A stretch of DNA of 64,000 nt. It comes from Hyphomicrobiales bacterium (GTDB lineage: Bacteria; Pseudomonadota; Alphaproteobacteria; Rhizobiales; Rhizobiaceae). Every line of letters begins with the position of its first letter. The stretch's first letter is position 1. The position numbers and the translations under genes were made by a program. Below, piece after piece: positions 14,332-54,335 of the stretch. A model generated the notes under the pieces. The model was not told where the DNA came from, searched no databases, and saw only the letters and a program-made list of their open reading frames with translations. The stretch lies in contig UBJR01000005.1 in NCBI GenBank assembly GCA_900465675.1, positions 672,273-736,272 on the forward strand, given 5' to 3'.

Positions 14332-14337
14332 GGGGCA

Positions 14338-14378: not shown

Positions 14379-14388
14379 GAACCTGTTA

Positions 14389-27079: not shown

Positions 27080-27133
27080 GCCATTCCTCCCGCGGCCATT
27101 TCTCGTTCCATGGCCGGCATATTGGTTCTTTTC

Positions 27134-27285: not shown

Positions 27286-27289
27286 GACT

Positions 27290-29143
27290 TCAAGCACTCA
27301 GCGCCTCATCTCCCGGCCGTACCTGCAGGTCGTAGAGCGCCTTGTAGCGCCCACCGAGAGCCAGCAGTTCGGCATGCGTGCCGCGCTCGACGATGCGGCC
27401 GTCCTCGACGAAGAGGATCTGGTCAGCATGCATCAGCGAGCTCAGCCGGTGCGCGACGATGATCGTGACCCGGTCGGCGGCGTATTTGCGCATCGCCGAG
27501 CGGATGCGCTGTTCGGTCGCCGCGTCGATTGCGGCCGTCGAGTCGTCGAAGACCATCACGGCGGGGCGCAGCATCAGGGCGCGAGCGATCGACAGGCGCT
27601 GGCGTTGGCCACCCGACAGCGAGACGCCACGCTCGCCGACGACGGTGCCATATCCCGTCGGCAGGCCGAGAACGTAGTTGTGCAGCTGCGCGCTTTCGCT
27701 GGCGCGCTCGATACGCGGCTCCTTCGCCCATGGGTCGCCATAGGCGATGTTGTTCTCGATCGTCGTTGTGAACAGGAAGGAATCCTGCTGCACGACGGCA
27801 ACGGAGCGGCGCAGCGATTGCAGTGTCGCCTTGCGGATATCCTGACCGTCTATGGTGATGCGGCCACCGGTGGCGTCATAGAAGCGCGGGATCAGATGCG
27901 CGATCGTCGACTTGCCGCTACCTGGAGGGCCGACAATGCCGATCGTTTCGCCGCGCTTCGCCTCGAAGCTGACATCGTAGAGAACCTGGTGCATCTCCGA
28001 GCTCGGATAGGCGAAGTCCACATGCTCGAAGCGAAGCGTTCCCTCGGTGATCTTGAGCTCCGCGGCATCGGGTGCATCGCGCACGGCAATCTCGAGGTCG
28101 AGAAGATTGAAGAGGCGCGTGCCGCAGGTCGAGGCCCGGGCAAAGGCGTTGACCATCAGGCCGAGCTGGCGCACTGGCATCTGCAGGATGGTCATGAAGG
28201 TCAGGAACGAGGCAAGCGTGCCCACGGTGATTTCGCCGGCCATGACCTTGCCGCCGCCGACCCAGAGCACGAGACCCATCGACACGAAGAACGAGAAGGT
28301 CATGGCGCTGGTATTGGCGACGCGGATGCCGACACGCTGATGCGCGAGTTCGATCGCACTTTCGGATGCCGCTTGGAATTTCGCCATCTCATGGTCCTGA
28401 GCCGCGAAGGCGCGGACGACGCGAATGCCGCCGAGGTTTTCTTCCATGATGCGGGTCAACACCGAAAGACGCTCCTGGAGCTCCAGCCAAGTGGCGCGCA
28501 GGCGCAGCTGCGTGACTGATGAACGCCAGCCGACGAAGGGAACGAAGCTCAGGGCGAGGAGACCGAGCACCGGATCGGTGGTGATAAGCATATAGGCGCC
28601 GATGCCGATCAGCATCGACAGCAGGAAGACACGCACCAGCGCCGTCGAGAAATACATCCGTACGCCTTCGAGATCGAGCAGGCCGATGGTGATGAGGTCG
28701 CCCGAATGCACGGTGTCGTGGAAGCTGAAGGACAGCCGCTGGATCTTTTCGTAACAGGCCAGCCGCAGCGAATAGCCCATATGGTGGCCGACGCTCTCGG
28801 AATAATAGTTCTGCACCATGGTGAAGAGGCCGCGCAGCACGCTGGCGCCAAGCAGCATCAGCGCCGTCGTCAGCAGCGCGTCCTGCGCCGCCTGGCCGAC
28901 GGTGCCTCCGCTCAGGGCGACCTGGGTGTGGTCGACCGCCTGGCCGAGTAGCCGCGGGATCATCAGTTGAAAGGTGGACGCCACAAGCGTCGCGCCGATC
29001 GCCAGGCTTGCCTGCCAGGGACGCCGGAAGGCCATGACGGTGATGCGGACCAGTGTGTAGAGGCCCTTGCCCCAGCCTGCCGCGGTTGCTTTCGCGAGCG
29101 AAGCCGAATGCTTCGTCGCGCTTAAGGACGCATCGCTGCTCAC
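27290..29143 (-). CDS. ABC exporter half-transporter with non-canonical Walker B
   Basis: A 617-residue type I exporter subunit: membrane domain to about residue 345, then ATPase with Walker A GPPGSGKST, signature LSGGQRQ, and switch His VAHRLSS. Walker B reads VMVFDDSTAAID, with Asp534 where the catalytic Glu normally is, as in degenerate sites of heterodimeric exporters. The start is uncertain: GTG 29143 gives a normal N-terminus but only a weak GGAA ribosome site; the open frame reaches 29254. It lies upstream of the second half-transporter on the same strand, with the palindromic repeat between them. Confidence 0.85.
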   Translation of the reverse strand: MSSDASLSATKHSASLAKATAAGWGKGLYTLVRITVMAFRRPWQASLAIGATLVASTFQLMIPRLLGQAVDHTQVALSGGTVGQAAQDALLTTALMLLGASVLRGLFTMVQNYYSESVGHHMGYSLRLACYEKIQRLSFSFHDTVHSGDLITIGLLDLEGVRMYFSTALVRVFLLSMLIGIGAYMLITTDPVLGLLALSFVPFVGWRSSVTQLRLRATWLELQERLSVLTRIMEENLGGIRVVRAFAAQDHEMAKFQAASESAIELAHQRVGIRVANTSAMTFSFFVSMGLVLWVGGGKVMAGEITVGTLASFLTFMTILQMPVRQLGLMVNAFARASTCGTRLFNLLDLEIAVRDAPDAAELKITEGTLRFEHVDFAYPSSEMHQVLYDVSFEAKRGETIGIVGPPGSGKSTIAHLIPRFYDATGGRITIDGQDIRKATLQSLRRSVAVVQQDSFLFTTTIENNIAYGDPWAKEPRIERASESAQLHNYVLGLPTGYGTVVGERGVSLSGGQRQRLSIARALMLRPAVMVFDDSTAAIDAATEQRIRSAMRKYAADRVTIIVAHRLSSLMHADQILFVEDGRIVERGTHAELLALGGRYKALYDLQVRPGDEALSA

Positions 29144-29374
29144 GGTAATGATTCCAAATAGATAAGTGCATTCGGACGCTGACCCGAAAACACGGCAATT
29201 CCATGATGGGATTGGTAGTGCGCTTACTTTTGCCGATTCCACCTGGCCGTTCAAGTAAAGAATTCACCAACTGGTTATTTTCTCGTGAGCGCGATCACGC
29301 GCCGTTTCCGCGCGGAACAATCGATGCTTTGCCGTGTTCGTGTGACGGACCGATATGAGTCCGTGGAGCACCGC

Positions 29375-39295: not shown

Positions 39296-39763
39296 TCAGT
39301 TAACCGGTTCCGGTGGCTGCTTGGCGCGCGCCGCGGTCAGTTCGGCAGTCGTGTGGTTCAGGCGGTCGGCCAGCACGCGCATGATTTCGACGGCCATTTC
39401 TGGGAAGTCGCTGAGCAGCTTCAGGAAGTGCTCTTTGCTGATGCGCAGGACTTCGAGCCCCGAGGTGGCGCGCACGGTTGCCGTTCGCGAGACGTCGCAG
39501 AGAATGGCGATCTCGCCGACGATCGAGTTGAGTTCGACATCGGCGACCTTGATATCGCCAGCGGGAGAATGGACGAGAATGTCGGCCGTTCCCGAGAGGA
39601 TCACGTAGGCTGCATCGCCCGGATCGCCCTGATGGAAAAGGTTCTGACCGGCCTTGTAGGTCATCCGGTCGGAGGTGAATGCCAAAAGCTTGAGTTTTGC
39701 CGGCGCGATCCTGGAAAAGATCGGCACCCGCCGCAGCATTTCGACTTCATCTCTCAACAGCAT
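39296..39763 (-). CDS. Cyclic nucleotide-binding domain protein without effector domain
   Basis: A 155-residue Crp-like ligand domain on its own. The beta-roll carries YKAGQNLFHQGDPGDAAYVI and an intact phosphate-binding cassette, VGEIAILCDVSRTATV, with the Glu and Arg that hold cAMP/cGMP. After the C-helix region (MAVEIMRVLADRL) the protein ends with no helix-turn-helix, so it cannot bind DNA as Crp does. It lies 108 nt downstream of the pseudo-ABC exporter gene on the same strand. It probably acts as a cNMP-responsive partner of another protein, perhaps that membrane protein. Confidence 0.85.
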   Translation of the reverse strand: MLLRDEVEMLRRVPIFSRIAPAKLKLLAFTSDRMTYKAGQNLFHQGDPGDAAYVILSGTADILVHSPAGDIKVADVELNSIVGEIAILCDVSRTATVRATSGLEVLRISKEHFLKLLSDFPEMAVEIMRVLADRLNHTTAELTAARAKQPPEPVN

Positions 39764-39871: not shown

Positions 39872-42586
39872 TTACGATAACAGTTCCTTGAACATAGTGT
39901 TTTTCTCCGAAAGTTCCGGATAGCCACCGGCTTGCGCCAGGCCACCGCGTTCGAAAAGCAGGATCCTGTCGAAGACCTCCGCAAGGCGTGCGTTCGACAG
40001 AACCCAGATGATTGCCGGGCGCTTGCCTTCTTCATGAAGGCCGGTCACCACGTTTCGGGTGATCTGGTCCTGGACGCGCTGGTCCAACGCCAGAAGCGGC
40101 CGGTTGAGGATGAAATAGTCGGAACGGCGCAGCAGCGCGCGCGCCAGGTTGATCTTCTGGCGCTGAACCATCGTCAGGCGCTTGCCGCCAGAGCCGACAT
40201 CGAATTCCATACCGATTGACAGCACGTCGTCGAACAGATCGAGCTTGTCGAAGAGCTCGCCCATGATCGAGCGGATATGCTCCGATGCATCGGCCTGCTG
40301 ATAGGCGATGCGGCCGAAAAGCACGTTGTCCATCAGGCTGGCAGACGCGGTGAAACGTTCCGGATCGTAGCGCTCGATAAGTGCCGAGAGATCACTGGGA
40401 ATATGTTCGTGGAACTGTTTGCGCGCCGAGACGATCTTTTCCATCAGCTCGTCGGTCAGCAGACCGAAGCGGTGGCGGGGCTCGATATAGGCGAAGCTCA
40501 GGCGGATGATACTTGAGCGTTCCTCGGCCGTCGCATCCTCGAACTTCCGGCTCTGCAGCTTTTGCAGCAGCGCCTGGTAGGCAGGGATGTCGTCCGCGGT
40601 CATGAAGGTCAGTTGCTGGAAGAACGGGTGATCCGGCGGCAGGTCATGGAACAGTTCCACGGCGTTTTCGGCGATCTCCAGGCCCATCGCGTAGAGATCG
40701 TTGCTGAGGCCGGTGTCGCGGAACAGTTGCTGGAAATAGGGGTGGGCGGCGAGGCGGCGGTTGGTCATCTGCGGCCGCTTCATCGTGCCGAAAAGCAGGT
40801 TCTCGCCAACCGTCGCCTGAGCGTTGTAGGCGTCGAAATCGAAGGGAACGACGATAGTGTCGAGCTTCTCTTCCTCCAGCCTCTCGCGCAAGGAGGCGCG
40901 TAGATCGACAATGCGCTCGGCAAGTGCCACATGAACGCTGGTATCGACCGAAGACCGCAGTGCCAGATCGAGAATGTCCTGCGAAATCAGCACAGCGTCG
41001 AGCACCGGGCGGATCGCTTTCAGCAGATCGTCGGGGCCTGTCGCACCGGCGGCGTTATAATCCACCCAGTCGCTGTTGAGGTCGAAAATCGGGTTTCCGG
41101 CGCGCAGCGCCTCCGCGTTTCGCCATTTGAATTCGAGAGCGTCCTGACCCTGGTAGCCCGGATCCGTCAGCGGCGCGTGCTTAAGGCCGTAGAGGATGTT
41201 GTCTTTCAGCGTACCGTGGAAAAAGTAGGTATCTGACGATACGTAAGAAATCCGTCTGCCGGTAATATATTCCGGCAGCGCAAGCAAATCCTGGCCGTCG
41301 ATGCTGATGCGCCCGCCTTCCGGCCAGACGATGCGCCCGAGCGCTTCGGCAAAGGCTTCCGCGCCGCTTCCATTCGGGCCGACGATCGCCACCGTTTCGT
41401 TCGGCTTGATCTCTACCGAGACGTGGTCGACCAGCCGCGCGCCGCTGTCGTCATTGACGGCGAGATTGGTTACGACGAGTGCCGCTGTCAACGGTCCGAT
41501 CGCTTCGGCCGGAACGTCCTGGATCTTGCTGTCGATCAACGGCTCGACGTTGAACTGCTCGTAGACCTGCTGATACTTGACCTGAACGTCTTGGCGCATC
41601 TGGTCCCAGTCGATCAGTTCCTTCAGCGGTCCCGGCAGATCCTTGTAGGCGGAGATGACGGCTACCAGCTGGCCGATGTCGAGGCGGCCCTGAAGCGCCA
41701 GATATCCGCCGATGGCGTAGAACAGGAACGGGGTGACCTGGGCCAGGAAGTTGTTCAGGAATTTCACCATGAACTTCCACTGGTAGAGGTCGTAGCGGAT
41801 CGAGAAGATCAGGCCGAGGCGCGCTGCGATATCGGCGCGCTCGAGGTTGGAAGTGTCGTTGCCATGGATGGTACCAATGCCATCGACGATTTCGCCGACG
41901 CGGCCCGAGAGTTCGCGTGCCGTCAGCTGCCGCTGGCGGCCGAGTTCGAGCAGGCGCTTCCTCATGCGCGGGATGACGATCGCCTGCACGCCGACGATAC
42001 CGGCGGCGATCATGCCGAGCCAGAAATTCTGGATGATGATGAAGGCGAGCGCCGTCAGCGCCTGGCCGCCAAGCAGGGCAGGCGAGACGAAGGCGTCGCC
42101 GGTAAAGCCGCCCATCGGCTCCACCTCGTCCTTGATCATCGTGGCGATTTCAGCGGATTTCACCCGCTTGAAATGCGCCGGCGGAAAGCGCAGCACCCGG
42201 TCGATCAGCTGAAAGCGGATACGGCGCAGCATGCGCTCGCCCAGGCGGCCCTTGTAGGTGTTGATGTAGAATTTGAAGAGGCCGTTCAGCACCACGAGCG
42301 CCAGGAAAACCAGGCTGAGCGCCATCAGCATCTGCAGACGGTTGAGCTGCAGACCCTGGAAGAACTCGACATGCCCGATCAGCGGCAGATCGTAGGCCAG
42401 ATGCATGAAGGTCTGCGTGGCGTTGGCATTGTCGAAGCCGTCACCCTGGATCGGTCCATTGACGATCTGCTTCGGCAGATCGAACGACAGGAAGTACGGG
42501 ATCATCGATGCCGCAACGACCGCCAGAATCCAGAGCTGCTGGAGGCGGGTGTTCGACCAGATGTAGCGGGCGAGACTCTTTTCCAT
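39872..42586 (-). CDS. ABC-exporter-like membrane protein with degenerate, expanded nucleotide-binding region
   Basis: A 904-residue protein with a type I exporter membrane domain (residues about 15-340) and an enlarged C-terminal ATPase-like region. Walker A is GPNGSGA with Ala409 replacing the essential Lys. The signature is LTMVQ (804-808) rather than LSGGQ. Walker B reads ILNRPLLALD with Asn828-Arg829 for Asp-Glu, and the switch His is Asn865. The x-ENILYG-type motif after the Q-loop occurs three times (Asn463, Asn596, Asn754), which suggests internal duplications or insertions. ATP hydrolysis looks impossible, so a scaffold, channel or regulatory role is likely. The frame is intact, so it is not a decaying gene. 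It is followed by a cNMP-binding protein and preceded by glycosyltransferases. Confidence 0.85.
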   Translation of the reverse strand: MEKSLARYIWSNTRLQQLWILAVVAASMIPYFLSFDLPKQIVNGPIQGDGFDNANATQTFMHLAYDLPLIGHVEFFQGLQLNRLQMLMALSLVFLALVVLNGLFKFYINTYKGRLGERMLRRIRFQLIDRVLRFPPAHFKRVKSAEIATMIKDEVEPMGGFTGDAFVSPALLGGQALTALAFIIIQNFWLGMIAAGIVGVQAIVIPRMRKRLLELGRQRQLTARELSGRVGEIVDGIGTIHGNDTSNLERADIAARLGLIFSIRYDLYQWKFMVKFLNNFLAQVTPFLFYAIGGYLALQGRLDIGQLVAVISAYKDLPGPLKELIDWDQMRQDVQVKYQQVYEQFNVEPLIDSKIQDVPAEAIGPLTAALVVTNLAVNDDSGARLVDHVSVEIKPNETVAIVGPNGSGAEAFAEALGRIVWPEGGRISIDGQDLLALPEYITGRRISYVSSDTYFFHGTLKDNILYGLKHAPLTDPGYQGQDALEFKWRNAEALRAGNPIFDLNSDWVDYNAAGATGPDDLLKAIRPVLDAVLISQDILDLALRSSVDTSVHVALAERIVDLRASLRERLEEEKLDTIVVPFDFDAYNAQATVGENLLFGTMKRPQMTNRRLAAHPYFQQLFRDTGLSNDLYAMGLEIAENAVELFHDLPPDHPFFQQLTFMTADDIPAYQALLQKLQSRKFEDATAEERSSIIRLSFAYIEPRHRFGLLTDELMEKIVSARKQFHEHIPSDLSALIERYDPERFTASASLMDNVLFGRIAYQQADASEHIRSIMGELFDKLDLFDDVLSIGMEFDVGSGGKRLTMVQRQKINLARALLRRSDYFILNRPLLALDQRVQDQITRNVVTGLHEEGKRPAIIWVLSNARLAEVFDRILLFERGGLAQAGGYPELSEKNTMFKELLS

Positions 42587-42768: not shown

Positions 42769-43902
42769 TCAGCCGAGCATTGAGCGAATGATCGCCGCTG
42801 TGGTTTCAGCGCCCGCAAGGTCCAGCGCGGCGGCCTGCCGGGGGGGACGCGCAAGGGCTTCGGAGACGGCACTTGCGACATGCTCAGCGGTGAGCCCGGT
42901 CTCCGGAAGAATGCTGGCCAGACCCATGGCTTTCAGCCGCTCGGCACGCACGGTCTGCTCCGTTTCGCCACCGGCAACAAAGGGGATCAGGATTGCCCGG
43001 CAATCGGTGCGCAGCAGATCGCCGACCGTATTGTAGCCGGCTTGCGAGATCGACACCTTGGCGCCCTTCAGCAGAGAGGGGAAATCCTTGCGGAACCGCA
43101 CCAGCGTCACGTTTGCGGGGGCCTCGTGCTGCAGTGCTGCGAAATCCCGTTCGGGAAGGTTCGGGCCTGAAATCAGCAGCCAGCGATAGCTCGCCGGAAG
43201 CGAGCATGCGGCATCGCGGGCGGCGCGGATCAAATCCAGGCCGACAGCGCCACCGCCTGCTGATGCGATGATATCGAATCGCTCAGCCGGATCGGCCGCC
43301 GGGGGCGGGGCGACGAGGCCGGTGTATCGCACCTTGTCGGCAATATCAGCAGTCAGCGGAAAGGTGTCTTCCAGCCGCACGAAATCAGGATCGCCGTGAA
43401 CGAGAACGGCATCGAAGTGATCCTTGACGAGCTTGACGGTTTCTTCGTCGCGGCCGGGTTTACGGTTCTCCTGCAGGATATCGCGGACCGAGCTGAAGAG
43501 TTTTGGCCGCGGATTGACCGAAGCGATCGCATCGAGCAGCGGCAGCAATTCGAAGCGCATTTGCCGGCGGCCGAAGGGAAAGGCTTCGATGATGACTGCA
43601 TCCGGCTTGGTCTCGCGAAATGCCGAAAGCAGCATGTCGCGGCGGGAAGACAGGAACGCTTCGGTGGCCGGATTGCCGTTTGCGTCTGCAAGCCCTGAAA
43701 ACCCGGCGTTGCTGGCAACGACAGGAGGAAGTGCAATCGTCTTCAGTCCCCCGGCCGGAAAGCCCGGAACAGGCAGGCCGCCGGTGACGACGGTGACGTC
43801 GAAACCATCTGTTGCCATGGCATTGGCGATGCGGCTCGCGCGGGCGATATGGCCGATGCCGAGCAGGTGCTGAACGTAGAAGAAGGCTCGCTTGCCGCTC
43901 AT
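42769..43902 (-). CDS. Glycosyltransferase, GT28/MurG-like
   Basis: A 377-residue GT-B-fold transferase. The N-terminal YVQHLLGIGHIARASRIANAM is the glycine-rich acceptor-side motif of GT28-like enzymes; the C-terminal donor site shows VSISQAGYNTVGDLL and IPFVAGGETEQ, matching MurG-type UDP-sugar binding. It is related to the 45158-46366 protein. ATG 43902 overlaps the stop of the preceding GT4 gene by 4 nt. It presumably adds a sugar to a lipid-linked or protein acceptor in a surface glycan. Confidence 0.85.
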   Translation of the reverse strand: MSGKRAFFYVQHLLGIGHIARASRIANAMATDGFDVTVVTGGLPVPGFPAGGLKTIALPPVVASNAGFSGLADANGNPATEAFLSSRRDMLLSAFRETKPDAVIIEAFPFGRRQMRFELLPLLDAIASVNPRPKLFSSVRDILQENRKPGRDEETVKLVKDHFDAVLVHGDPDFVRLEDTFPLTADIADKVRYTGLVAPPPAADPAERFDIIASAGGGAVGLDLIRAARDAACSLPASYRWLLISGPNLPERDFAALQHEAPANVTLVRFRKDFPSLLKGAKVSISQAGYNTVGDLLRTDCRAILIPFVAGGETEQTVRAERLKAMGLASILPETGLTAEHVASAVSEALARPPRQAAALDLAGAETTAAIIRSMLG

Positions 43903-45161
43903 GGGGTCTTCTCCCACTCGGCTTCAAAAAGCTGCGTCAGCTGCGCGATGCTGGAATGGTAGTCGAAATGCGCCCGGACGCGCTGTTCGGCGGCGTCGCC
44001 GAGGCGGTGGCGCAGAGCCGGATCGCGGATTGCCCGCTCAAGCGCTGCAGCCAGCGCTATCGGGTCTTCAGGGGGCACGACAAGGCCATTTTTGTCGTCT
44101 GTCAGCAGTTCCGGCACGCCCGAGATATTGGTGGACAGGCAGGCAAGCCGTTGGCTCGACGCCTCGACCAGCACGTTCGGCAGCCCGTCACGATCGCCAT
44201 TGGCGGCGATCCGGCAGGCGAGCACGAAGAGATCGGCCCGTCTGTAGTGATCGAGAACATCTTCCTGGGCGAGCGCGCCCTTCCAGACGATGCGCTCAGA
44301 AAGACCAAGAGTGCTGGCAAGTGCCTTGAGCTTCGCAAGCTCGTCGCCGCCGCCGATGTGCTCGAGGCGCCAGGCCAGATCTTTCGGCAGCAGGGCCAGC
44401 GCGTTGAGCAGGATGTCGTAACCCTTCTTCTCGACGGCGCGGCCGACGCTGAGCAGGAAGACCGGATCGCTGGTGGCCGATCCGTCACGCTTCGACCGAT
44501 CGCCTGAAAAATGGCCGAAACGGGCAAGATCGAGCCCGTGATAGCTGAGATGCACCGCATCCGGACGGCTGGTCAGCGTCCGCATGTGTTCATAGCCGGT
44601 GCGTGTGCAGGTCACCGCCCAGCGGGCGCTCGAAAGCTTCTCGTTCAGCTCCCAATCCGGCGAGGTCCAGATGTCCTTGGCATGGGCGGAAACCGTCCAC
44701 GGGACGCCGGTCAGAATGCTGGCATATTCCGTTACCGAGGCCGGCGTATGGATGAAATGGGCATGCAGCCACTGGCCGTTATCAGGCCATTCACGCGCGA
44801 GAACCAGCGCCTGGCCAAGCCTGCGGAAGCGATTGCGGGAAATGTCGCGCGGCAGGTCGGCGAAGAAGCGCTTCATCAGCGCTCCGAACCCCTTCCTGCT
44901 GAAGCCGGCGAAAAGGCTCTTCAGGACGCGAAGCGGTTCCTCGTGCAGATATTCCGGCAGATAGACGACGCGCGCCTTGATCTCGTCATGAACAGGATGC
45001 CGCTTCTTGTCGGTCGGGCGGCGCATGGAAATCAATGTCAGGTCGAAGCCTGCCTTTTCGAGGCCAAGCAGCTCCTGGGCAATGAAGGTTTCCGAAAGGC
45101 GTGGATAGCCTTTCAGGACGACGAGGATCTTCCGGCGCTCTGGCAATGTCGGTGTCTTCAC
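43899..45161 (-). CDS. Glycosyltransferase family 4
   Basis: A 420-residue GT-B transferase. The N-terminus KGYPRLSETFIAQELLGLEKAG is typical of exopolysaccharide GT4 enzymes. LLSVGRAVEKKGYDIL is the donor-domain entry and EASSQRLACLSTNISGVPEL contains the conserved Glu region. Start is GTG 45161, overlapping the preceding gene (GTGA), and its end overlaps the next. It forms the middle of a three-gene glycosyltransferase set. Confidence 0.9.
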   Translation of the reverse strand: MKTPTLPERRKILVVLKGYPRLSETFIAQELLGLEKAGFDLTLISMRRPTDKKRHPVHDEIKARVVYLPEYLHEEPLRVLKSLFAGFSRKGFGALMKRFFADLPRDISRNRFRRLGQALVLAREWPDNGQWLHAHFIHTPASVTEYASILTGVPWTVSAHAKDIWTSPDWELNEKLSSARWAVTCTRTGYEHMRTLTSRPDAVHLSYHGLDLARFGHFSGDRSKRDGSATSDPVFLLSVGRAVEKKGYDILLNALALLPKDLAWRLEHIGGGDELAKLKALASTLGLSERIVWKGALAQEDVLDHYRRADLFVLACRIAANGDRDGLPNVLVEASSQRLACLSTNISGVPELLTDDKNGLVVPPEDPIALAAALERAIRDPALRHRLGDAAEQRVRAHFDYHSSIAQLTQLFEAEWEKTP

Positions 45162-46366
45162 TCTGCGCCGACGAGGGAGAGATGACGGCCGCGATTGTCG
45201 AGCCAGCGGCCGACGGTCTGCGAGATATGATCGAGGCCCTCAAGCCGCATTGTGCAGCCGCTCTGCGACGGCGGCTGGCGGTTTGGCAGCTGTTTCAGGG
45301 CTTCGGCCATGATGGCAGGATTGGCGGACTGATCCGGCAGCAGCATATCGACGAGGCCGAGTTCGCTGGCGCGCTGCGCCCGCAGCAACTGCTCCTCACG
45401 CGGCTTGACGCGCGGCACGATCAGCGCGGGCTTGTCGAAGGAGAGGATCTCGCAATAGGTATTGTAGCCGCCCATGGCGACCACGCCCGTTGCCCCCTCG
45501 ATCAGCTCTTCCATGTGATTGTCGAATTCGATGACCTCGATGGACGGGATCTTTTCACCCTTCTTGACGAGCTTCGTGCGCTCTGCGGCCGGCATATAGG
45601 GGCCGAGCACCACAAGCGCCTTCAATTGAAGGGTCGAATCCTGCTCGTAAGCGTTCATCACGTCGTGGACGAGATCGGAGCCGTCGCCTCCGCCGCCCGT
45701 CGTGACGAGAATGTATTTTTCCTTAGGCGTGTTCACCGACTTCTTGCTCTTCGAAACGCTGCGCTGCAGGAAGCCGACGAAATCCATCTTGCGTCGGACA
45801 TTGGCGGGAACATCGAGGCCGACCAACGGATCGTAGAAGTCCGGCGGGCCATAGACCCAGACGCTGTCGTAATACTGGTCGATCTTCTGCATGATGCCGT
45901 TGCGCTTCCATTCGGCATCGAGCAGGTGCGGCGCGTCCATGATCTCGCGAAGGCCAAGCACCAGCGTCGTACCGCGCGCTTTCAGATAGGCGAGCGTATC
46001 CTCGACTTCACCCTTCAGACCCATGGGCTCCTTGTCGACGATGAAGATGTCGGGCTGGAAGGTCTCGGCGGTATGGCGAATGCTGGATTCGCGCATCTTC
46101 AGCGTATCCTGCAGATCGATATGGCTCGCCATCGACGTATATTCGCCGTTGCGAAGCTTGATCACGCTCGGGATCTTCACGAAATCGACGCGGGCGCGGT
46201 AATCGAAGGCGCCGGCGATCGTGGCGCCCGAGATGATCAGGATGTTGAGGCCGCGATAGTCTTCGACCAGCGCATGGGCGATCGTTCTGCAGCGGCGCAG
46301 ATGGCCGAGACCGAACGTGTCGTGGCTGTACATGAGGATACGTGCATCTTCAACACGTCTGGCCAT
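45158..46366 (-). CDS. Glycosyltransferase, GT28-like
   Basis: A 402-residue GT-B protein: MYSHDTFGLGHLRRCRTIAHAL is the glycine-rich N-terminal motif, VTTGGGGDGSDLV and VAMGGYNTYCEIL the donor-binding region. ATG 46366 is preceded by GAGG at a suitable spacing; ATG 46393 is an alternative with a poorer site. It heads the three-gene glycosyltransferase unit, 88 nt after the end of the peptide-transporter genes on the same strand. Acceptor and sugar are unknown. Confidence 0.85.
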   Translation of the reverse strand: MARRVEDARILMYSHDTFGLGHLRRCRTIAHALVEDYRGLNILIISGATIAGAFDYRARVDFVKIPSVIKLRNGEYTSMASHIDLQDTLKMRESSIRHTAETFQPDIFIVDKEPMGLKGEVEDTLAYLKARGTTLVLGLREIMDAPHLLDAEWKRNGIMQKIDQYYDSVWVYGPPDFYDPLVGLDVPANVRRKMDFVGFLQRSVSKSKKSVNTPKEKYILVTTGGGGDGSDLVHDVMNAYEQDSTLQLKALVVLGPYMPAAERTKLVKKGEKIPSIEVIEFDNHMEELIEGATGVVAMGGYNTYCEILSFDKPALIVPRVKPREEQLLRAQRASELGLVDMLLPDQSANPAIMAEALKQLPNRQPPSQSGCTMRLEGLDHISQTVGRWLDNRGRHLSLVGAE

Positions 46367-46454
46367 GGAGAGTACCTCTGGGGCGAATGACATAGTTCAC
46401 CCCCGTTTGCCGGAGGCCAAGAGACAGCGGGCCGATGATCCGCTGGACTTGCTG

Positions 46455-47627
46455 TTATTTGTAGGGATCTGCGGCATCGCGCAACCCGTCTCCCAGAAAG
46501 TTGAAGGCAAGAATGACAAGAACCACCGGAATTATCGGGAACAGAAGCCACGGGTAGAAAGCGATGACACTGACGCTTTTCGCTTCGGTGAGCAAGATCC
46601 CCCAGCTGGTGATCGGTGGCCGAAGGCCAAGGCCGAGGAACGACAGCGCCGTTTCGCCAAGGATCATTCCGGGGATGGAAATCGTTGCAGAAGCAATGAG
46701 ATGCGACATGAAACCGGGAACCAGATGGCGGCCGATGATGCGCGGTGTGCTGGCGCCCATCAACTGTGCGGCCTGCACATAATCCTCTTCGCGAAGCGCC
46801 AGAAGCTTGGATCTGACGGCACGTGCCAGCCCGGTCCAGTCGATGATGCCGAGGATTACGGTAATGCCGAAATAGATGACGATCGGGCTCCAGGTCACCG
46901 GCATGATGGCGGCAAGCGCCATCCAGAGAGGCAAGCTCGGCAGCGATTGCAGCACCTCGATCATGCGCTGCACGATCAGATCGAAGACGCCTCCGCGATA
47001 GCCGGCGAGGCCGCCGATGACGATGCCAAGCACAAAGCTGATGGTGATGCCGATCAGGCCGATCGTCAGCGAGATTCGCGCGCCATAGAGGATGCGCGAC
47101 AGCACGTCGCGGCCGAGCCGGTCGGTCCCGAGCAAATACATCTGTCCGCCTTCGGCCGGGCAGACGAGGTGCCGTCTGGATTCGAACAGACCCCAGAAAC
47201 GATAGGCATCGCCGCTGCAGAAGAAGCGTATCGGCTGAATGTCGTCGGGTTTCTCGGTGTAAATGCGGCGCAGCGTATCGATATCGAGCCGCATCGAGCG
47301 GCCATAGACGAAGGGACCGATGAATTCGCCCTTGTCGAAGAAATGCACCCGCTGCGGCGGCGAATGGATGTAGTCGACATTGCGGCTATGCAGGCCGTAA
47401 GGCGCCAGGAACTCGACGATCAGGATCGCGAAATAGACCAGTGCGAGAAAGATGCCGGAAATCAGCGCCAGGCGGTGCTGCTTGAACTTCCACCACATCA
47501 GCTGCTTCTGCGACGCGAGATGAATGCGCGACTGCGCAGAGGTCATCGTCTCCTGCGCTTGCGGATCGAACGGGGTGGTCGAGACAAAGTGCTCCAGGGG
47601 GGCGCCTGGTGGCGGCAAGGGCGACAT
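46455..47627 (-). CDS. Oligopeptide-type ABC transporter permease (OppC family)
   Basis: A 390-residue permease. After the first membrane helix (LALISGIFLALVYFAILIVEFLAP) comes a periplasmic insertion of about 100 residues, including FVYGRSMRLDIDTLRRIY, not seen in typical OppC. The conserved LLGTDRLGRDVLSRILYGARISL then leads to the transport core and EAA loop QAAQLMGASTPRIIGRHLVP. It overlaps the OppB-type gene by one base (TAATG). It is part of a PepT-family importer for peptides, opines or oligosaccharides. Confidence 0.9.
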   Translation of the reverse strand: MSPLPPPGAPLEHFVSTTPFDPQAQETMTSAQSRIHLASQKQLMWWKFKQHRLALISGIFLALVYFAILIVEFLAPYGLHSRNVDYIHSPPQRVHFFDKGEFIGPFVYGRSMRLDIDTLRRIYTEKPDDIQPIRFFCSGDAYRFWGLFESRRHLVCPAEGGQMYLLGTDRLGRDVLSRILYGARISLTIGLIGITISFVLGIVIGGLAGYRGGVFDLIVQRMIEVLQSLPSLPLWMALAAIMPVTWSPIVIYFGITVILGIIDWTGLARAVRSKLLALREEDYVQAAQLMGASTPRIIGRHLVPGFMSHLIASATISIPGMILGETALSFLGLGLRPPITSWGILLTEAKSVSVIAFYPWLLFPIIPVVLVILAFNFLGDGLRDAADPYK

Positions 47628-48625
47628 TATTTGGTGCTCCTGCCTTGCAAGCGGATGCGGGGATCAAGGAAGCCGAGAGCGATATCCGAGATCAGCACGC
47701 CGATAACGTTCAGGAAGGCGAGGAACATCAGGAACGAACCGGCAAGGTACATGTCCTGGCTCTGCAGCGCCTTGACCAGCATCGGCCCGGTCGTTTCGAG
47801 CGACAATACGATGGCAACGATTTCGGCGCCCGAAATGATCGATGGCAGGATGGAGCCGATATCGGCGACGAAGAAGTTCAGCGCCATGCGCAGCGGATAT
47901 TTGATCAGCGCCCGGGTCGGATGCAGGCCCTTCGCACGCGCCGTCGTCACATATTGCTTCTGCATCTCGTCGAGCAGGTTGGCACGCAGGCGGCGGATCA
48001 TGCCTGCTGTTCCAGCGGTGCCGACGATGATCACCGGGATCCAGAGATGCGCGAGGATCGACTTCGCCTTCTCCCAGCTCATCGCCTCGTTCAGATATTG
48101 CTGGTCCATGAGATGGCCGATGGAGAGGCCGAACCACACGTTGGCGAAATACATCAGGATCAGCGCCAGCATGAAATTCGGGATGGCGATGCCGAGCAGA
48201 CCGAAGAAGGTCAACCCGTAATCGCCCCAGCTATATTGATGGGTGGCCGAATAGATGCCGATCGGGAACGCGATAAGCCAGGTGACGAGGATGGTGGTGA
48301 AGGAGACGAGGATCGTCAGCCACAACCGGTCGCCGACGACATCGGAAACCGGCAGCTGGTATTCGAACGAATAGCCGAAATCGCCATGCAGCATGCCGCC
48401 GACCCAGTAGAAATAGCGGACGATCTCCGGCTTGTCGAAGCCGTACTGCTTCCGGAGTTCCTCGATTTCCTGGAGGTTGGCGGCTTCGCCCTGGGCGCGC
48501 AGCTCGGCGATCTGGCTTTCGAAGAAGTCGCCCGGCGGCAGCTCGATGATGGTGAAGACCAGAGCCGAGATCACGAACAGCGTCGGCACCATGGCGGCGA
48601 TACGCCAGAGGATATATCTCAGCAT
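47627..48625 (-). CDS. Oligopeptide-type ABC transporter permease (OppB family)
   Basis: A 332-residue permease beginning with RYILWRIAAMVPTLFVISAL, the usual first OppB helix, and containing GIAIPNFMLALILMYF and the EAA loop VTTARAKGLHPTRALIKYPLR. Six membrane helices are expected. It starts one base after the binding-protein gene and overlaps the OppC-type gene, giving a fully coupled unit. Confidence 0.92.
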   Translation of the reverse strand: MLRYILWRIAAMVPTLFVISALVFTIIELPPGDFFESQIAELRAQGEAANLQEIEELRKQYGFDKPEIVRYFYWVGGMLHGDFGYSFEYQLPVSDVVGDRLWLTILVSFTTILVTWLIAFPIGIYSATHQYSWGDYGLTFFGLLGIAIPNFMLALILMYFANVWFGLSIGHLMDQQYLNEAMSWEKAKSILAHLWIPVIIVGTAGTAGMIRRLRANLLDEMQKQYVTTARAKGLHPTRALIKYPLRMALNFFVADIGSILPSIISGAEIVAIVLSLETTGPMLVKALQSQDMYLAGSFLMFLAFLNVIGVLISDIALGFLDPRIRLQGRSTK

Positions 48626-48626
48626 C

Positions 48627-50540
48627 TCACGCCTCCTTCAGCCAGAACGCGTCAGGCATGTAGATGCCGAGGAAGGAGGTCGGGTCGAAGCCGTAAAGCG
48701 CCCGTTCCGGAACGTTCTGCATCTTCTTCGAGATCAGGATCGGCTGCAGCGCGCCGTTGATCAGGCCGATCGAGAAGACCTGCTGGGTATAAAGCGCCAG
48801 CATCTTGTGCCAGATCTCCTCCCGTTTCTTGAAGTCGGCGGTTGCTCCCCACTGGCTCAGCAGATCGACGAGCTGCACGACCTCGGGGATATCGGGCGCG
48901 CTACCTTCCTGGCCGGCCGAGAGGTAGTACATGCCCCAGATCGGCCATTGCAACTGATCGTCTACGGTCGGTGCAAGCTGTACCGGCGCCATGTCGGCGG
49001 TCGGCACGCCGTTCTCGATGCCGAACCAGATCGCCATCATGATCGAGCCGCTCATCGCGCGGCTTCTGAAGATGTCACGCTGGGAGGTCCGCGTGTAGAG
49101 CGCGATGCCGATCGTGCGGAAGTGATCGCGCACGAGTTCCAGCACGTCGGTATCGAGCGTGCTTTCGCCGGGTGTCTCGACGGTGATCTCGGCACGCCGC
49201 CCGTCCGGCAGAAGGCGGATATCCTCTTCGTCGCGATTCGTCAGGCCGAGTTCGTCGAGCAGCTTGTTTGCCTGATCGACATCATGCTGGATGAAGGCGT
49301 CGGCATATTCCTGCTTGAAGAGCGGGCTGTCGGGCAGAACCGTATCGGCGCTCGGCGTGCCAAGCCCATAAAACGCCACCATATTGATCTCGTGGCGGTC
49401 GATCGCCAGCGACAGCGCCCGGCGGAAGCGGACGTCGCGGAACAGCTTGCGCCAGACCTCATCGGCGCAATTGAGGTTCGGCAGCAGCGCAACGCGCGAG
49501 CCGCGGGCCTGCTTCCAGAGATTGACCTTCACCGGGAAGCGCTGCTCGGCCTCTTTCAGGAAGGTATAGTCGTTGAAGTCGATGCCGGTTGCCTGCAGGT
49601 CGGATTCGCCGGCGCCCGCCTTGGCGGCGATGATCGACGAGGAGCTGACATTCAGGATGAAGCGGTCGATATAGGGAAGCTGCACGCCGTTCTCATCGAC
49701 ACGGTGGAAAAAGGCGTTGCGGTCGAAGATGAACTGATCGGCCGGCGGCTTGGTCATGACCTTCCAGGGGTCGAGAGTCGGCAGATCCGGGTTCTCGGGA
49801 CGCGAGGCGCGCGACATCTTGATGTGCAGGTCGGCCCACTTCTTGACCCGGTTTTCCTTCATCAGCGCCGAAAGGCGGAAATCGTCCTGATACTTCTTGT
49901 GAAACTGTTTCAGGTAGTGTGCCGGCCCGAAGATGACGAGCGGCAGCGGACCGGCGAGTGCCGGCAGGAAGCTTGGGTTCGGCTTTTCCCAGGTATAGCG
50001 GACGATGAGGTCGTCGAGCACCTCGAACTTCGGCAGGTCGCCGTGCGGACGCAGCTCCAACGCACCGCCGCCTGGGGTCGCTTCCTTGTTGAGGATAACA
50101 TCCTCCCACCAGTAGCGGAAGTCATCGACCGTAAACGGCTTGCCATCCGACCACTTGTGATCTTCGCGAAGGTGGAAGGTGAAGATGCGGTCGTCTTCTG
50201 TCGTGTAACCGCCGAGAATGTCCGGCTGGAACTGCAGGTGCTTGTCGTAACCGATCAGCCTCGAATAGCCATAGACGGTCATGTAGCGGACGTCGCGCGG
50301 GCCGCCGATGATGGTCTTGACCTGGCCGCCATAGGTGCCGGGCGCCAGGCCCGCTTCCTTCATGTTGATGATGCGCGGATGCTTCGGCAGCCGCTGCGCC
50401 ATCGGCGGAATGGCGTCGGCGCGCAGCTGGTCGCGCAGGAATTCCGGCTCGATATCGCGATCGTCGGAGGCGGCGCGGACAAGGGTAGGCGCAACCGTTG
50501 CGCCGATCATGCCGCCGAGGAAGGTGCGACGCGTTACCAT
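48627..50540 (-). CDS. ABC transporter solute-binding protein, family 5, Tat-type signal
   Basis: A 637-residue receptor, longer than typical Opp/Dpp receptors (about 530-550). The N-terminus [23 protein letters not shown] carries a twin-arginine motif, suggesting export in folded form. Family 5 features include WSDGKPFTVDDFRYWWEDV and FRRALSLAIDRHEINMVAFYGLG. It overlaps the end of the ATPase gene by 7 nt. The ligand could be a peptide, opine or galactoside; sequence does not decide. Confidence 0.9.
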   Translation of the reverse strand: MVTRRTFLGGMIGATVAPTLVRAASDDRDIEPEFLRDQLRADAIPPMAQRLPKHPRIINMKEAGLAPGTYGGQVKTIIGGPRDVRYMTVYGYSRLIGYDKHLQFQPDILGGYTTEDDRIFTFHLREDHKWSDGKPFTVDDFRYWWEDVILNKEATPGGGALELRPHGDLPKFEVLDDLIVRYTWEKPNPSFLPALAGPLPLVIFGPAHYLKQFHKKYQDDFRLSALMKENRVKKWADLHIKMSRASRPENPDLPTLDPWKVMTKPPADQFIFDRNAFFHRVDENGVQLPYIDRFILNVSSSSIIAAKAGAGESDLQATGIDFNDYTFLKEAEQRFPVKVNLWKQARGSRVALLPNLNCADEVWRKLFRDVRFRRALSLAIDRHEINMVAFYGLGTPSADTVLPDSPLFKQEYADAFIQHDVDQANKLLDELGLTNRDEEDIRLLPDGRRAEITVETPGESTLDTDVLELVRDHFRTIGIALYTRTSQRDIFRSRAMSGSIMMAIWFGIENGVPTADMAPVQLAPTVDDQLQWPIWGMYYLSAGQEGSAPDIPEVVQLVDLLSQWGATADFKKREEIWHKMLALYTQQVFSIGLINGALQPILISKKMQNVPERALYGFDPTSFLGIYMPDAFWLKEA

Positions 50541-52432
50541 GCGCGTAGCTCCTTGACGTCGGCACCTTTTCGGGCGCGCACGAAATGGCCTTCGCCGAGA
50601 TCGGCATAGGCAAGCTCGGAAGCGTCGTCATGTTCGGCGGTAAAGGTCAGGCCCCAGTTCTGCTTGTCGGCAGCACCATTCTTGCGCAGCGCTTCGAAAT
50701 CGAGTGGCCGGTCGAGATCGGGGAAGGGGACGGCTGCCAGCAGCGACTTGGTATAGGGGTGAACCGGATCGCGCAGGATGATTTCGCGCGGTGCGATTTC
50801 GACGATGCGGCCCTTGCACATGACGGCGATGCGGTCGGCCATGTAGTCGACGACGGCAAGATTGTGCGAGATGAACAGATAGGTCAGGCCAAGTTCCTTC
50901 TGCAGGTCCTTCAAGAGATTGAGGATCTGCGCCTGAACCGAGACGTCGAGCGCCGAAACCGGCTCGTCGAGGATGATGAGTTTGGGGCCGAGAGCAAGCG
51001 CGCGAGCGATACCGATGCGCTGGCGCTGGCCTCCGGAAAAGCTGTGCGGATAGCGGCTGAGGTAGCGGCGGTCGAGGCCGATGGCGCCCATCAGCGCTTC
51101 GACCTTGCGCTTGCGCTCCTCGCTGTCGCCGCGGTCGTGAATCTCGAGCGGCTCGCTGAGAATATTTCGCACCGTCATGCGCGGCGAGAGTGATGAGACC
51201 GGATCCTGAAACACCATCTGGATCTTGGTGCGCAGCTCCTGCAGCTCGTCGCCCTTGACGGTCAGAACGTCGATGACTTCCTTGCCGTCGTTGAAAACCA
51301 CCGAACCGCTATCCGGTGTGATCGCCCGCATCAGGATCTTGCTGACCGTGGTCTTGCCGCAGCCGGATTCGCCGACGAGACCCAGGCACTCGCCGCGCCT
51401 GATGTCGAAGCTGACGTCATCGACGGCGCGCAGCACGGATTTTTCGCCCTGGCCGAAAAGGCCGCGCTTGCGGATCGCATAGGTTTTCGAGAGATTGTTG
51501 ACCGACAGCAGCACCTTCGGCGCGTCGTGATCGACGGACGACTTCTTCTTGCCGATCAGCGATTCGAGATTGACCGGCACGTCGCGTAGCGCCTTCAGCC
51601 GTTCGCCGGGCTTCATGTCGAAATGCGGGACCGCGGCCATCAGGCCCTTCAGATAGGGATGCTGCGGGTTGCGGAAGATTTCCTTGACCGGACCGGCTTC
51701 CATGATCTCGCCGTGATAGATGACGACCACTTCGTCGGCCATGTTAGCGACAACGCCGAGATCGTGCGTGATCAAGAGCATCGCCATGCCGAGCTTGTGC
51801 TGCAGGTCGCGCAGGAGTTCCAAGATCTGCGCCTGGATCGTCACGTCGAGCGCCGTCGTCGGTTCGTCGGCGATCAGCAGCGCCGGCCGGCAGATCAGCG
51901 CCATCGCGATCATCGCGCGCTGGCGCATGCCGCCAGACAGCTCGAACGGGTACATGTCGTAGGTGCGCTTCGGATTGGCGAAGCCGACGAGGGCAAGCAT
52001 CTCCTCGGTCTTCTCGCGCGCTTCCTTCTTGTCGGCGTCGGTGTGGATCAGTAGCGACTCGCTGATCTGGTTCCCAACCGTATGAAGCGGCGAAAGCGAG
52101 GTCATCGGCTCCTGAAAGATCGTCGCCATGCGCTTGCCGCGCAGATCGCGCATCTGTTCGCTGTCGCGGCCATATTGCAGAATATCGGTGGTCTTGCCGT
52201 CGAGGGGATCGGTGAACAGGATCTTGCCCGTCGCCTTGGCCGGCGTCGGCAGAATGCCCATGATCGATTGACTGATGACGGATTTTCCGGAGCCGGATTC
52301 ACCGACAAGTGCGGTGACCTTACCCGGTAGGATACGTAGCCCGGCGTCTTTTACGACACGCAGCTTGTCCCCGAAAACCGAGAATGAGACGTCGAGATTC
52401 TCGATACGCAACAAGTCGGACGCGGACGCCAT
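50534..52432 (-). CDS. Peptide-type ABC transporter ATPase, fused DppD-DppF
   Basis: A 632-residue protein with two complete ATPase domains. The first has [16 protein letters not shown] and [11 protein letters not shown]; the second [17 protein letters not shown] and [11 protein letters not shown]. Each is followed by the peptide-transporter C-terminal region ([30 protein letters not shown]). The frame extends upstream but ATG 52432 after GGGGAA gives the family N-terminus. It energises the importer encoded downstream and lies 144 nt after the cyclase gene. Confidence 0.93.
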
Positions 52433-52576
52433 ACCAATGATATTCCCCAGTCTTATTCTGTTCCCGTTAAGGCACACTAGCCTACCGTAAGCGGGGTGTC
52501 CAGTTTATGACAGCTCTGGAGAATTTGGCGCTTTAGCGCTGATATTCAAGCAAAAATCGGCCTCTTTGAAGGCCAC

Positions 52577-53920
52577 TTACTGAACGAACCTTTCAACCAT
52601 CGGACGCTTCTCCTGCTTCTTCGCGTCACGATGCAGCAGGATCACCTGTTCGGCTTCGGACAGCCCATTCTGGGCGACGTCCTGGAAGGTTCCGCCATCG
52701 GCGAGCGGCGGCGGCGTGATGCGCGGCTGCAGCACGGTGACCTTCTGGCGGATGCCGCGCAGCTTTTCCTCGCCGAGCGTCGTCCATTCGCCGCCGCAAT
52801 AGCCGGCGAACGCCTGGCTGGCGACAACCTCACGATTATACTTCTTGGTCAGCGACTGCAGGCGCTGGACTTCGTTGACGGCCGAACCGAAGGCCGAGAA
52901 CGTTAGCCGGTCCTTCAGCCCGACATTGCCGAACATGACGTTGCCGATATGCAGGCCGATGCCGTAGCGCACCGGGCTCATGCTTTTTCCGGCGCGCTCA
53001 TTGTTGAGCTCGGCAACACGCGACTGTGCCTGATGGACGGCCGATAGTGCTGCTTGTGCCGCAATCTTTGAAGGATCCTTGTGGCGGCCGCATGGATAGA
53101 CGGCGAGAAAGCCGTCGCCGAGGAAGCTCAGGATCTCGCCGCCATTGCGGTTGAAGGGTGCGGCAATCGCGTCGAAGAACTCATTCAGCGTATCGATATA
53201 GGCCTGGCGGCCCTCCTTTTCGGCGAACATCGTCGACTGGCGCATGTCGCCCATGACGAGCGCGGCACGGATCGTCTCGCCGTCGCCGCGGCGGATCTGG
53301 CCGTTCAGCACCCGCTTGCCGGCATCGCCGCCGAGATAGGTGGTCAGCATATTGTTGGCGAGCTTGCCGAGCACCGCCATCTTGGCGGCGACGGCCAGAT
53401 GGTTCTGCATGCGCAGCAGCGCTTCGATCATGTCGTCGGAAAAGCCGGAATGCGCGTCCGTCGACCACGAGCCCATCATGCCCTGTACGGAGCCATCGCC
53501 GAACGGCTGCACGAAGGCGAGATAGTCGGTGATCTTCTCCTTGCGGAGATCGTCGAAGATCGGGAATTCGGCCGGTCCTTCCTGGCTCATCCGGCGGCGA
53601 ATGTGCTGCAGGTTGTTGTCGAGCAGGTAGTAATAGGGGCTTTGGAGGAAACGATCCGGCTTGGCGCCGGCCGAATGCCGGTAACCCTCGATGGTGACGC
53701 CACTCGAGCGCCGCCAGGTGAAGCTCAGCGCATCATAAAGCGGATGCAGCATTGAAAAGGTCAGGTGAACGCGGGCGATCGGCAGACCGGCAGCGGCGAT
53801 GCGCTCGCAAAAACCACGAACGATATTCTCCAGATCATCGCCGGCCAGCGAAGAATTGGTCAGCCATTCGGCGACGCGGTCCAGAAGAATGGAGGACACG
53901 CTGGATTCGATGGTGCTCAT
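52577..53920 (-). CDS. Class III nucleotide cyclase with atypical substrate residues
   Basis: A 447-residue cytosolic protein with an N-terminal sensory region of about 210 residues and a C-terminal cyclase domain. The metal aspartates are in MGDMRQSTM and FLGDGFLAVY, and the transition-state Asn and Arg in AVNEVQRLQ. The Lys that normally precedes IGDG is Ser (GGEILSFLGDG) and the adenine-recognising Asp of GDTVN is Ser (FGSAVN), so substrate choice may be unusual or activity low. ATG 53920 is chosen; an ATG seven codons earlier is possible. It precedes the peptide-importer genes on the same strand. Confidence 0.82.
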   Translation of the reverse strand: MSTIESSVSSILLDRVAEWLTNSSLAGDDLENIVRGFCERIAAAGLPIARVHLTFSMLHPLYDALSFTWRRSSGVTIEGYRHSAGAKPDRFLQSPYYYLLDNNLQHIRRRMSQEGPAEFPIFDDLRKEKITDYLAFVQPFGDGSVQGMMGSWSTDAHSGFSDDMIEALLRMQNHLAVAAKMAVLGKLANNMLTTYLGGDAGKRVLNGQIRRGDGETIRAALVMGDMRQSTMFAEKEGRQAYIDTLNEFFDAIAAPFNRNGGEILSFLGDGFLAVYPCGRHKDPSKIAAQAALSAVHQAQSRVAELNNERAGKSMSPVRYGIGLHIGNVMFGNVGLKDRLTFSAFGSAVNEVQRLQSLTKKYNREVVASQAFAGYCGGEWTTLGEEKLRGIRQKVTVLQPRITPPPLADGGTFQDVAQNGLSEAEQVILLHRDAKKQEKRPMVERFVQ

Positions 53921-54335
53921 TTTTGGTATTATCCTCATCAAGCACGTCCGTTCCTGAAAGCGACGAAAAACCTGCCTGCAGCGCGGTCACGCGCAGGGCG
54001 GGGGGCAAGATGGACGAGCGGTATTATTGTGTCAACGATCTGCCGAAGACCCGGCAAACCTACCTGTCAGAGCCCGAAAAGAGCGAGGACGGGTGTCCTT
54101 TCTGGTGGTTCATTATCCTAATCAGATAGGCATTTGATCGATCCGAAACAATGCTATCCGGATAATTTTCTGCCTCCGGTTTCGATGTCTGCGGCCAGCG
54201 AGTCTTTTCGGCCACAGTGCAAAAGAGGTGCGATGCGATTACGGCTTGTATCGGGCAGCGCCGATCACGACCGCTTCACCATCCTGTCAGGCAGAAGGCG
54301 GGTTTAAATCATTGCGATCTTGCATTATCTCACCC
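53921..54335. other. Intergenic region between divergent cyclase and dehydrogenase genes
   Basis: A 415-nt gap between the cyclase start and the UDP-sugar dehydrogenase start. The only coding candidate is the 39-codon frame at 54010-54129. The remainder shows no clear promoter hexamers or repeats that I can support. Confidence 0.5.
54010..54129 (+). CDS. Possible small protein (39 aa), hypothetical
   Basis: A 39-codon frame with ATG 54010 preceded by GGGGGCAAG. The product is charged in its first two thirds (MDERYYCVNDLPKTRQTYLS) and ends in a short hydrophobic tail, CPFWWFIILIR, that could touch the membrane. It lies alone upstream of the dehydrogenase gene. It may be a chance frame; nothing but the ribosome site and composition supports it. 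Confidence 0.3.
   Translation: MDERYYCVNDLPKTRQTYLSEPEKSEDGCPFWWFIILIR

Follow-up and report, generated by a model that had tools for sequence, protein, structure and literature searches.

To our knowledge, ATP-binding cassette (ABC) proteins that work without ATP hydrolysis are rare, and they are instructive. In CFTR and SUR an ABC protein has become a gated channel or the regulator of a channel, controlled by signals or nucleotides; both are eukaryotic, bind ATP and have other regulators than the protein considered here. NHLM bacteriocin exporters, which are linked to proteins with a cyclic nucleotide (cNMP)-binding domain, have intact ATPase domains and export peptides. The nearest precedent that we found for an ATP-free ABC-like membrane domain is SbmA/BacA (SLiPT), in which a domain derived from ABC exporters works without ATP; it has neither a nucleotide-binding domain (NBD) nor coupling helices, and uses a glutamate ladder (PMC13316013). 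Here we describe a pseudo-ABC half exporter encoded in a 64,000-nucleotide stretch of a Hyphomicrobiales bacterium (assembly GCA_900465675.1, contig UBJR01000005.1, positions 672,273 to 736,272; hereafter, the window). We lean, if only slightly, towards the view that it descends from a type IV ABC exporter and has been converted into a membrane switch that responds to cyclic nucleotides and operates without ATP hydrolysis. The support, on the level of sequences and models, consists of the loss of catalytic residues, selection, internal repeats, linkage to a cNMP-binding domain and enrichment of cyclase genes nearby.

The protein resembles type IV (ABCB-like) exporters such as MsbA, TM287/288, PCAT1 and ComA in its membrane domain and single NBD fold, but differs from them in its lost catalytic residues, an insert of about 315 residues with repeats of the helical subdomain, and its cNMP-binding partner. 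It scores 167 bits against the NCBIfam MsbA model, for which the cut-off is 602, and no NCBIfam model reaches its cut-off among the matches listed (25 of 96). Unlike SbmA/BacA, it has a pseudo-NBD and conserved cytoplasmic-loop sequence. The likeness to CFTR and SUR is one of kind, within the ABC family. With NHLM export it shares the link between a cNMP-binding domain and an ABC exporter; the cNMP protein of the window matches TIGR03896 with an E value of 8e-11 and 41.9 bits, below the cut-off of 161. No description of the pseudo-ABC protein was found in literature searched by topic and locus tag (titles and the starts of abstracts, with old locus tags unmapped). Where the gene is annotated, most records give "ABC transporter" or "ABC transporter ATP-binding protein", labels that are probably misleading.

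Results

Catalytic residues are lost from an intact reading frame

The gene is an open reading frame (ORF) of 904 codons without interruption on the minus strand (Table 1). Pfam places ABC_membrane (PF00664) at residues 86–311 (55.5 bits, cut-off 28) and ABC_tran (PF00005) at 386–484 (49.6 bits, cut-off 25), both in a numbering that is one short; an intact frame with a retained exporter membrane domain is also what a preliminary description, made from the DNA letters and their ORFs, had reported. The protein has lost the residues with which ATP is bound and hydrolysed. For the motif comparison and the tree, seven canonical exporters were fetched, and L002, L004, L006 and L007 were excluded for wrong or partial frames. 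In alignment with three canonical exporters from the same genome, the Walker A lysine is replaced by Ala409 and the following Ser/Thr by Glu410, the Q-loop glutamine by Ser451, the signature LSGGQ by LTMVQ (with both glycines gone), the Walker B Asp-Glu by Asn828-Arg829, and the switch histidine by Ser864. The preliminary description had correctly recognized Ala409, LTMVQ and Asn828-Arg829; it misplaced the switch position at Asn865. Its wording that every catalytic motif is lost holds for the main residues, the Q-loop glutamine included, but goes too far for signature Gln808, D-loop Asp835 and the Walker A glycines 403 and 408, which are retained.

The genome holds one full-length copy, and the remaining matches are partial, to ABC proteins, at 20–40% identity. 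A chance ORF is ruled out by the spread of homologues and by the ratio of nonsynonymous to synonymous substitution rates (dN/dS).

The family is under purifying selection and has lost the catalytic set throughout

The first set for dN/dS comprised the window sequence and 80 loci, minus a broken copy (L105) and eight sequences not of 904 amino acids, which gave 72 rows; one row out of register (L116) was dropped to leave 71 Rhizobiaceae coding sequences of equal length. Counting only pairs with dS of 0.1–1.2, the median pairwise dN/dS was 0.096 and the maximum 0.234. Regional medians were 0.064 for the membrane domain, 0.137 for the first part of the NBD, 0.121 for the insert and 0.093 for the last part, the largest single sub-region value being 0.420. 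The replacement residues are themselves conserved, with Glu410 and Asn828 each present in 71 of the 72 rows (one row being out of register) and Arg829 in 69. Pseudogene decay, for which a ratio near 1 had been named as the sign, is rejected on dN/dS and on the conserved motif states of the family.

Across 93 aligned full-length members, the window included, a complete catalytic set occurs in none. The Walker A lysine is retained in 6, the Walker B aspartate in 22 and the Walker B glutamate in 9, the switch histidine in 2, the Q-loop glutamine in 1 and both signature glycines in 0. The catalytic losses, as far as aligned sequences tell, are graded and family-wide, so the ancestor of the family was presumably a normal exporter. 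The proposal of a selected non-ATPase function, made in the preliminary description together with the suggestion to test whether the substitutions are conserved among orthologues, is thus upheld by purifying selection in each region, the family-wide losses and the conserved length of the insert. A charge swap between positions 410 and 829, which might have formed a locked ATP-free site, was considered as well. Among 93 rows, 38 have both an acid at 410 and a base at 829, 16 the acid only, 8 the base only and 31 neither (Fisher P 2.5e-6); we do not claim it, because there are only 8 independent pairs, taken on supported tree branches, and their sign test gives a median P of 0.5.

Relatives were found in 97 of 199 sampled genomes of the family (E 1e-60), 99 of 297 of the order (E 1e-40) and 32 of 398 of the phylum (E 1e-30). 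All but one of the last 32 belong to the same class (31/32), and the sole match outside it is an ORF with only the transmembrane domain (TMD) at a contig end. Copies are also carried by 262 of 72,556 plasmid records (E 1e-60, with 80% or more of the protein covered in every case), mostly from Rhizobium (144) and Sinorhizobium (80), with Ruegeria, Azospirillum and others among the rest. In several S. meliloti pSymB records (NC_003078.1, 841723-844435, and others) the match exceeds or falls short of the 2712-base query by one or a few bases, and these copies may contain a frameshift or a sequencing error.

A cNMP-binding domain accompanies the pseudo-ABC protein

The next gene, 108 bp downstream, encodes a protein of 155 residues that matches PF00027 with 68.9 bits (cut-off 27.5) and contains the phosphate cassette GE...R (VGEIAILCDVSRTATVRA). 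The locus survey covered 85 full-length loci besides the window, including paralogues of one genome. A cNMP domain is linked to the pseudo-ABC protein in 82 of these: in 66 a co-oriented gene directly downstream encodes it (65 were detected by script and one, L214, by hand because of an overlapping ORF call), and in 16 it is present as a C-terminal fusion, for example in Azospirillum (1020 residues) and Ruegeria (1031 residues). On a quick tree of the membrane domain the fused state requires three changes, two of them forced by supported branches; the root branches are long and uncertain. Over 83 domains, the window's included, the cassette glycine is present in all 83, Glu or Asp in 81 and the arginine in 81. 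A cNMP-binding domain with a conserved cassette is the commonest genetic partner of the pseudo-ABC protein, and is predicted to bind cAMP or cGMP. This partner had been missed in the preliminary description, whose overall interpretation is otherwise supported in part.

The insert is at least in good part a repeated helical subdomain

The stretch from the Q-loop to the signature columns measures 315 residues in the window protein, as against 27 in the three canonical exporters of the same genome, which agrees with the enlargement of about 300 residues noted before. The insert splits the NBD in every aligned full-length member; its length in the others is 274–333, with two outliers of 344 and 387. 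Three motifs of one type occur in the protein, D462-N463-ILYG, E595-N596-LLFG and D753-N754-VLFG, the same three as in the preliminary description, which took them for traces of a partial NBD duplication. Profile–profile comparison within the protein bears this out, with helical-subdomain repeats arranged around a single NBD core: residues 551–638 match 710–795 with probability 99.1 (E 1e-18; maximum 7.4 in 40 column-shuffled controls), and residues 443–549 match 734–799 with probability 96.2. For unit 1 against 656–812 the value was 95.3, and 40 shuffled controls reached at most 1.0. The profiles were built without L234, L235, L237 and the TMD-only rows. In a first repeat test, segments outside the insert scored at most 5.2. 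Two segments inside it that had been presumed to be controls (500–570 and 655–728) scored 65–86 in three comparisons, which would fit repeat units of greater length.

An AlphaFold2 model of the protein has a mean predicted local distance difference test (pLDDT) score of 75.1 and a predicted template modelling score of 0.57, with the NBD and insert mostly at 70–90. VIA-align matched model residues 362–903 to the ComA NBD (3vx4_D) with Z 26.9 and a root mean squared deviation of 2.2 Å over 240/240 residues. This single match indicates one NBD core, and several NBDs in one chain, which the preliminary description had suggested counting by structure prediction, are rejected. For a separate model of residues 440–800 (mean pLDDT 81.7), Foldseek found nothing at E ≤0.001. 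ABC exporters make up 14 of the 15 best VIA rows for this model, matched over their Q-loop-to-signature part and covering about residues 585–727 of the protein (146–288 of the model); because Z was 3.6–4.9, below the level trusted alone, these rows are taken as agreeing with the sequence repeats. The insert has no Pfam match, and the best hit of its profile against PDB sequences (E 0.13) is to ABCC4, over the Q-loop stretch only. By the profile–profile repeats, the insert consists at least in good part of the repeated Q-loop-to-signature helical subdomain.

Some relatives consist of the membrane domain only

Eight relatives (L169 and L250–L256) have open frames of 382–489 residues (434 in L169) that contain the membrane domain only; L256 is cut by the contig start, with a stretch of 3.2 kb. 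No ORF matching the window's ABC ATPases was found in the stretches fetched for L250–L256, and no ABC ATPase is annotated in that of L169. On the membrane-domain tree this state has at least two origins or losses. In seven TMD-only rows, the most frequent residue is that of the family at 70 of the 76 membrane-domain columns conserved at ≥85% over the 93 members. The existence of NBD-less relatives that share these conserved positions supports the idea that the membrane domain is able to function in the absence of ATP. Among five TMD-only relatives examined for their surroundings, four (L169, L252, L253 and L254) lie among copper-resistance genes, for example those for multicopper oxidase, CopB, PCuAC or a copper ATPase; the two flanking ORFs scanned in L250 are not copper genes. 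The settings of these four (the gene in L169 being at 13773-15077) include a Phaeobacter plasmid typed as conjugative.

Cyclase genes are enriched near the pseudo-ABC gene

In the window, ten co-directional genes occupy 53941 to 39296, never more than 182 bp apart, in the order class III cyclase, Opp importer (four genes), three glycosyltransferases, pseudo-ABC and cNMP protein. Gene set and order are identical in Rhizobium johnstonii 3841; R. leguminosarum WSM2304 and Sinorhizobium meliloti have extra genes between the glycosyltransferases and the pseudo-ABC gene, and in Azospirillum the fused form has the importer and glycosyltransferase genes directly after it. Neighbours were taken from a mechanical ORF survey, from which several other recurring clusters resembling antisense ORFs of known genes were set aside by eye. 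Both glycosyltransferases, GTa and GTb, have homologues near 42 of the 85 loci, and Opp components were found near 51, in stretches that reach only about 8.5 kb per side around most loci. The gene pRL110056, whose product is described as an O-antigen enzyme that root colonization requires (PMC11103875), may belong to the cluster of strain 3841; SMb208xx locus tags tried in the literature did not lead to the pseudo-ABC gene.

Of 80 loci, 44 have a cyclase-like ORF; in 32 it lies downstream in the same orientation, no more than 3.5 kb away. A cyclase lies nearby in 22 of 39 loci (34 genomes), where PF00211 counts per genome lead one to expect 1.9 (P 2e-20, kinship ignored); the 22 are likely an undercount, cyclases inside L191 and L216 having been missed in the count of cyclase-like ORFs. 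The genome of the window has 21 PF00211 matches. All 10 cyclase-like ORFs scanned contain PF00211 and 6 of them a 2Fe-2S ferredoxin domain too (Table 1), hinting at redox-controlled cyclic nucleotide signalling.

Table 1 Features of the window and of ferredoxin-cyclase loci, by nucleotide position
Feature	Position	Strand	Remarks
Pseudo-ABC half exporter	39872..42586	-	904 aa
Exporter membrane domain (PF00664), residues 1-345	41552..42586	-	Pfam match and conserved columns
Pseudo-NBD, N-terminal half, residues 363-470	41177..41500	-	degenerate Walker A and Q-loop
Degenerate Walker A GPNGSGAE, residues 403-410	41357..41380	-	
Insert, residues 470-784	40235..41179	-	between Q-loop and signature columns
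Helical-subdomain repeat unit 1, residues 443-549 (DNILYG)	40940..41260	-	profile-profile
Helical-subdomain repeat unit 2, residues 551-638 (ENLLFG)	40673..40936	-	profile-profile; weak structural support
Helical-subdomain repeat unit 3, residues 710-795 (DNVLFG)	40202..40459	-	profile-profile; extends into signature helix
Pseudo-NBD, C-terminal half, residues 785-904	39875..40234	-	LTMVQ, Asn828-Arg829, Ser864
Cyclic-nucleotide-binding protein	39296..39763	-	155 aa; next gene, 108 bp downstream of pseudo-ABC
Three overlapping glycosyltransferase genes	42769..46393	-	MurG-like 42769-43917, GT4-type 43899-45161, GT28-like 45158-46393
Opp/dipeptide-type importer	46455..52477	-	two permeases, substrate-binding protein, double ATPase
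Class III adenylate/guanylate cyclase	52577..53941	-	first gene of co-directional run
2Fe-2S ferredoxin cyclases near pseudo-ABC/cNMP pair	L209:11682-13418, L206:11689-13389, L181:6469-8328		
2Fe-2S ferredoxin cyclases near pseudo-ABC/cNMP pair, further	L214:11543-13408, L222:6168-7964, L243:5861-7615		

Discussion

As a cyclic-nucleotide-responsive switch, the pseudo-ABC protein would form a homodimer, with the cNMP domain docking on the enlarged pseudo-NBD. The conformation of the membrane domain would then be set not by ATP but by cAMP or cGMP made by local cyclases, the pseudo-NBD relaying the state of the cNMP domain to it. The membrane domain may in turn serve some envelope process, either as a gated passage or as a regulated scaffold; in rhizobia and their relatives that process is probably tied to the neighbouring glycan genes. 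A more specific form of this proposal is possible but doubtful, namely that the protein is an ABC-derived bacterial cyclic-nucleotide-gated channel or transporter, a prokaryotic counterpart of CFTR/SUR, in which the cNMP domain on the enlarged pseudo-NBD replaces the ATP engine, with NBD-less branches of which some serve copper handling.

Several observations weigh against a cNMP-driven switch. Co-location and fusion indicate a working link, which is not the same as gating, and in the stretches searched no cNMP domain was detected for three deep members (L234, L235 and L237). Of the 83 cassettes, 11 have Asp in place of Glu, 2 have neither and 2 lack the arginine. No cyclase is annotated in the stretches shown for the fused Azospirillum and Ruegeria forms; the cyclase statistic takes no account of kinship, and paralogues from one genome are among the 85 loci. 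The loops of the membrane domain are weakly modelled (pLDDT <50 at model residues 122–163, 225–249 and 339–350). There are also rare broken copies: in L105, one of the 80 named loci, the frame ends early at 791 codons, and G043, a genome among the 97 matched in the family, has an in-frame stop. The preliminary description had named orthologues with intact Walker motifs as evidence to the contrary, and one lineage (L248 and L249, also L161) does keep Lys-Ser in Walker A and Asp-Glu in Walker B, but has neither the signature glycine pair nor the switch histidine. Since these Walker motifs are kept, and since Arg takes the place of the Walker A lysine in 27 of 93 members, nucleotide binding is conceivable in some of them. 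L248 and L249 are cNMP-fused, and are candidates for ATP binding without hydrolysis.

Other roles for the protein have to be set beside the switch. That it is the degenerate subunit of a heterodimeric ABC exporter, with a canonical half transporter encoded elsewhere to supply the ATP sites, is the least probable of the readings weighed here. Two canonical exporter genes do lie in the window (25181-29254), but Walker A and signature are both lost, so that neither composite site of an NBD dimer would be complete even with a canonical partner. An ORF that matches one of these two window exporters best occurs in just 6 of 85 locus neighbourhoods, counted by eye, and a dedicated partner is therefore not conserved nearby; moreover, no NBD gene was detected in the stretches fetched for the TMD-only relatives. 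A known precedent for this role is TM287/288, a heterodimeric exporter that has a non-canonical ATP site (PMC5216877). Those same TMD-only relatives fit a secondary transporter of the SbmA/BacA type, with a proton-driven membrane domain and a merely regulatory pseudo-NBD and cNMP domain, for which SbmA/BacA offers the precedent of an ABC-derived membrane domain active without ATP (PMC13316013). We regard this as distinctly unlikely, because the only Pfam matches at E ≤0.001 are ABC_membrane and ABC_tran, with none to an SbmA/BacA family, and because the acids conserved at ≥85% (E117, E146, E154, E156 and E232) appear to lie in cytoplasmic extensions of a weak model, in which a glutamate ladder is not evident.

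A third role, in which the protein transports nothing and, like SUR in the KATP channel, acts as a scaffold or receptor that positions glycosyltransferases and Opp importer at the membrane under cNMP control, is unlikely. It would suit the tightly spaced co-directional run of the window, the recurrence of GTa with GTb and of Opp components among the loci, and the genes directly beside the Azospirillum fusion. One or both glycosyltransferases were, however, not found in the stretches searched for 43 of 85 loci, for example in Ruegeria, so the role of a scaffold for adjacent glycosyltransferases, put forward in the preliminary description, is improbable as a general one unless partners differ or lie further off.

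The pseudo-ABC protein and its relatives appear to form a widespread alphaproteobacterial family, in which the motifs are found in intermediate states, some branches have no NBD, and at some of the loci a second-messenger domain is covalently joined to the protein. Such a family makes it testable how an exporter is re-powered or becomes a switch. If the protein is a cyclic-nucleotide-responsive switch, rhizobial cyclases gain a possible direct, non-transcriptional target at the envelope.

Other features of the window

No Rfam match reached the gathering scores in the window. In a strict pattern search, one of the two adjacent canonical exporter genes at 25181-29254 showed Walker A and Walker B and the other Walker A and LSGGQ, complementary motifs of the kind that a heterodimeric exporter might be expected to have. 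The segment 38514-39289, next to the cNMP gene and on the opposite strand, has a gene for a ParE-type toxin (PF05016) and, upstream of it, a small ORF that is possibly its antitoxin.

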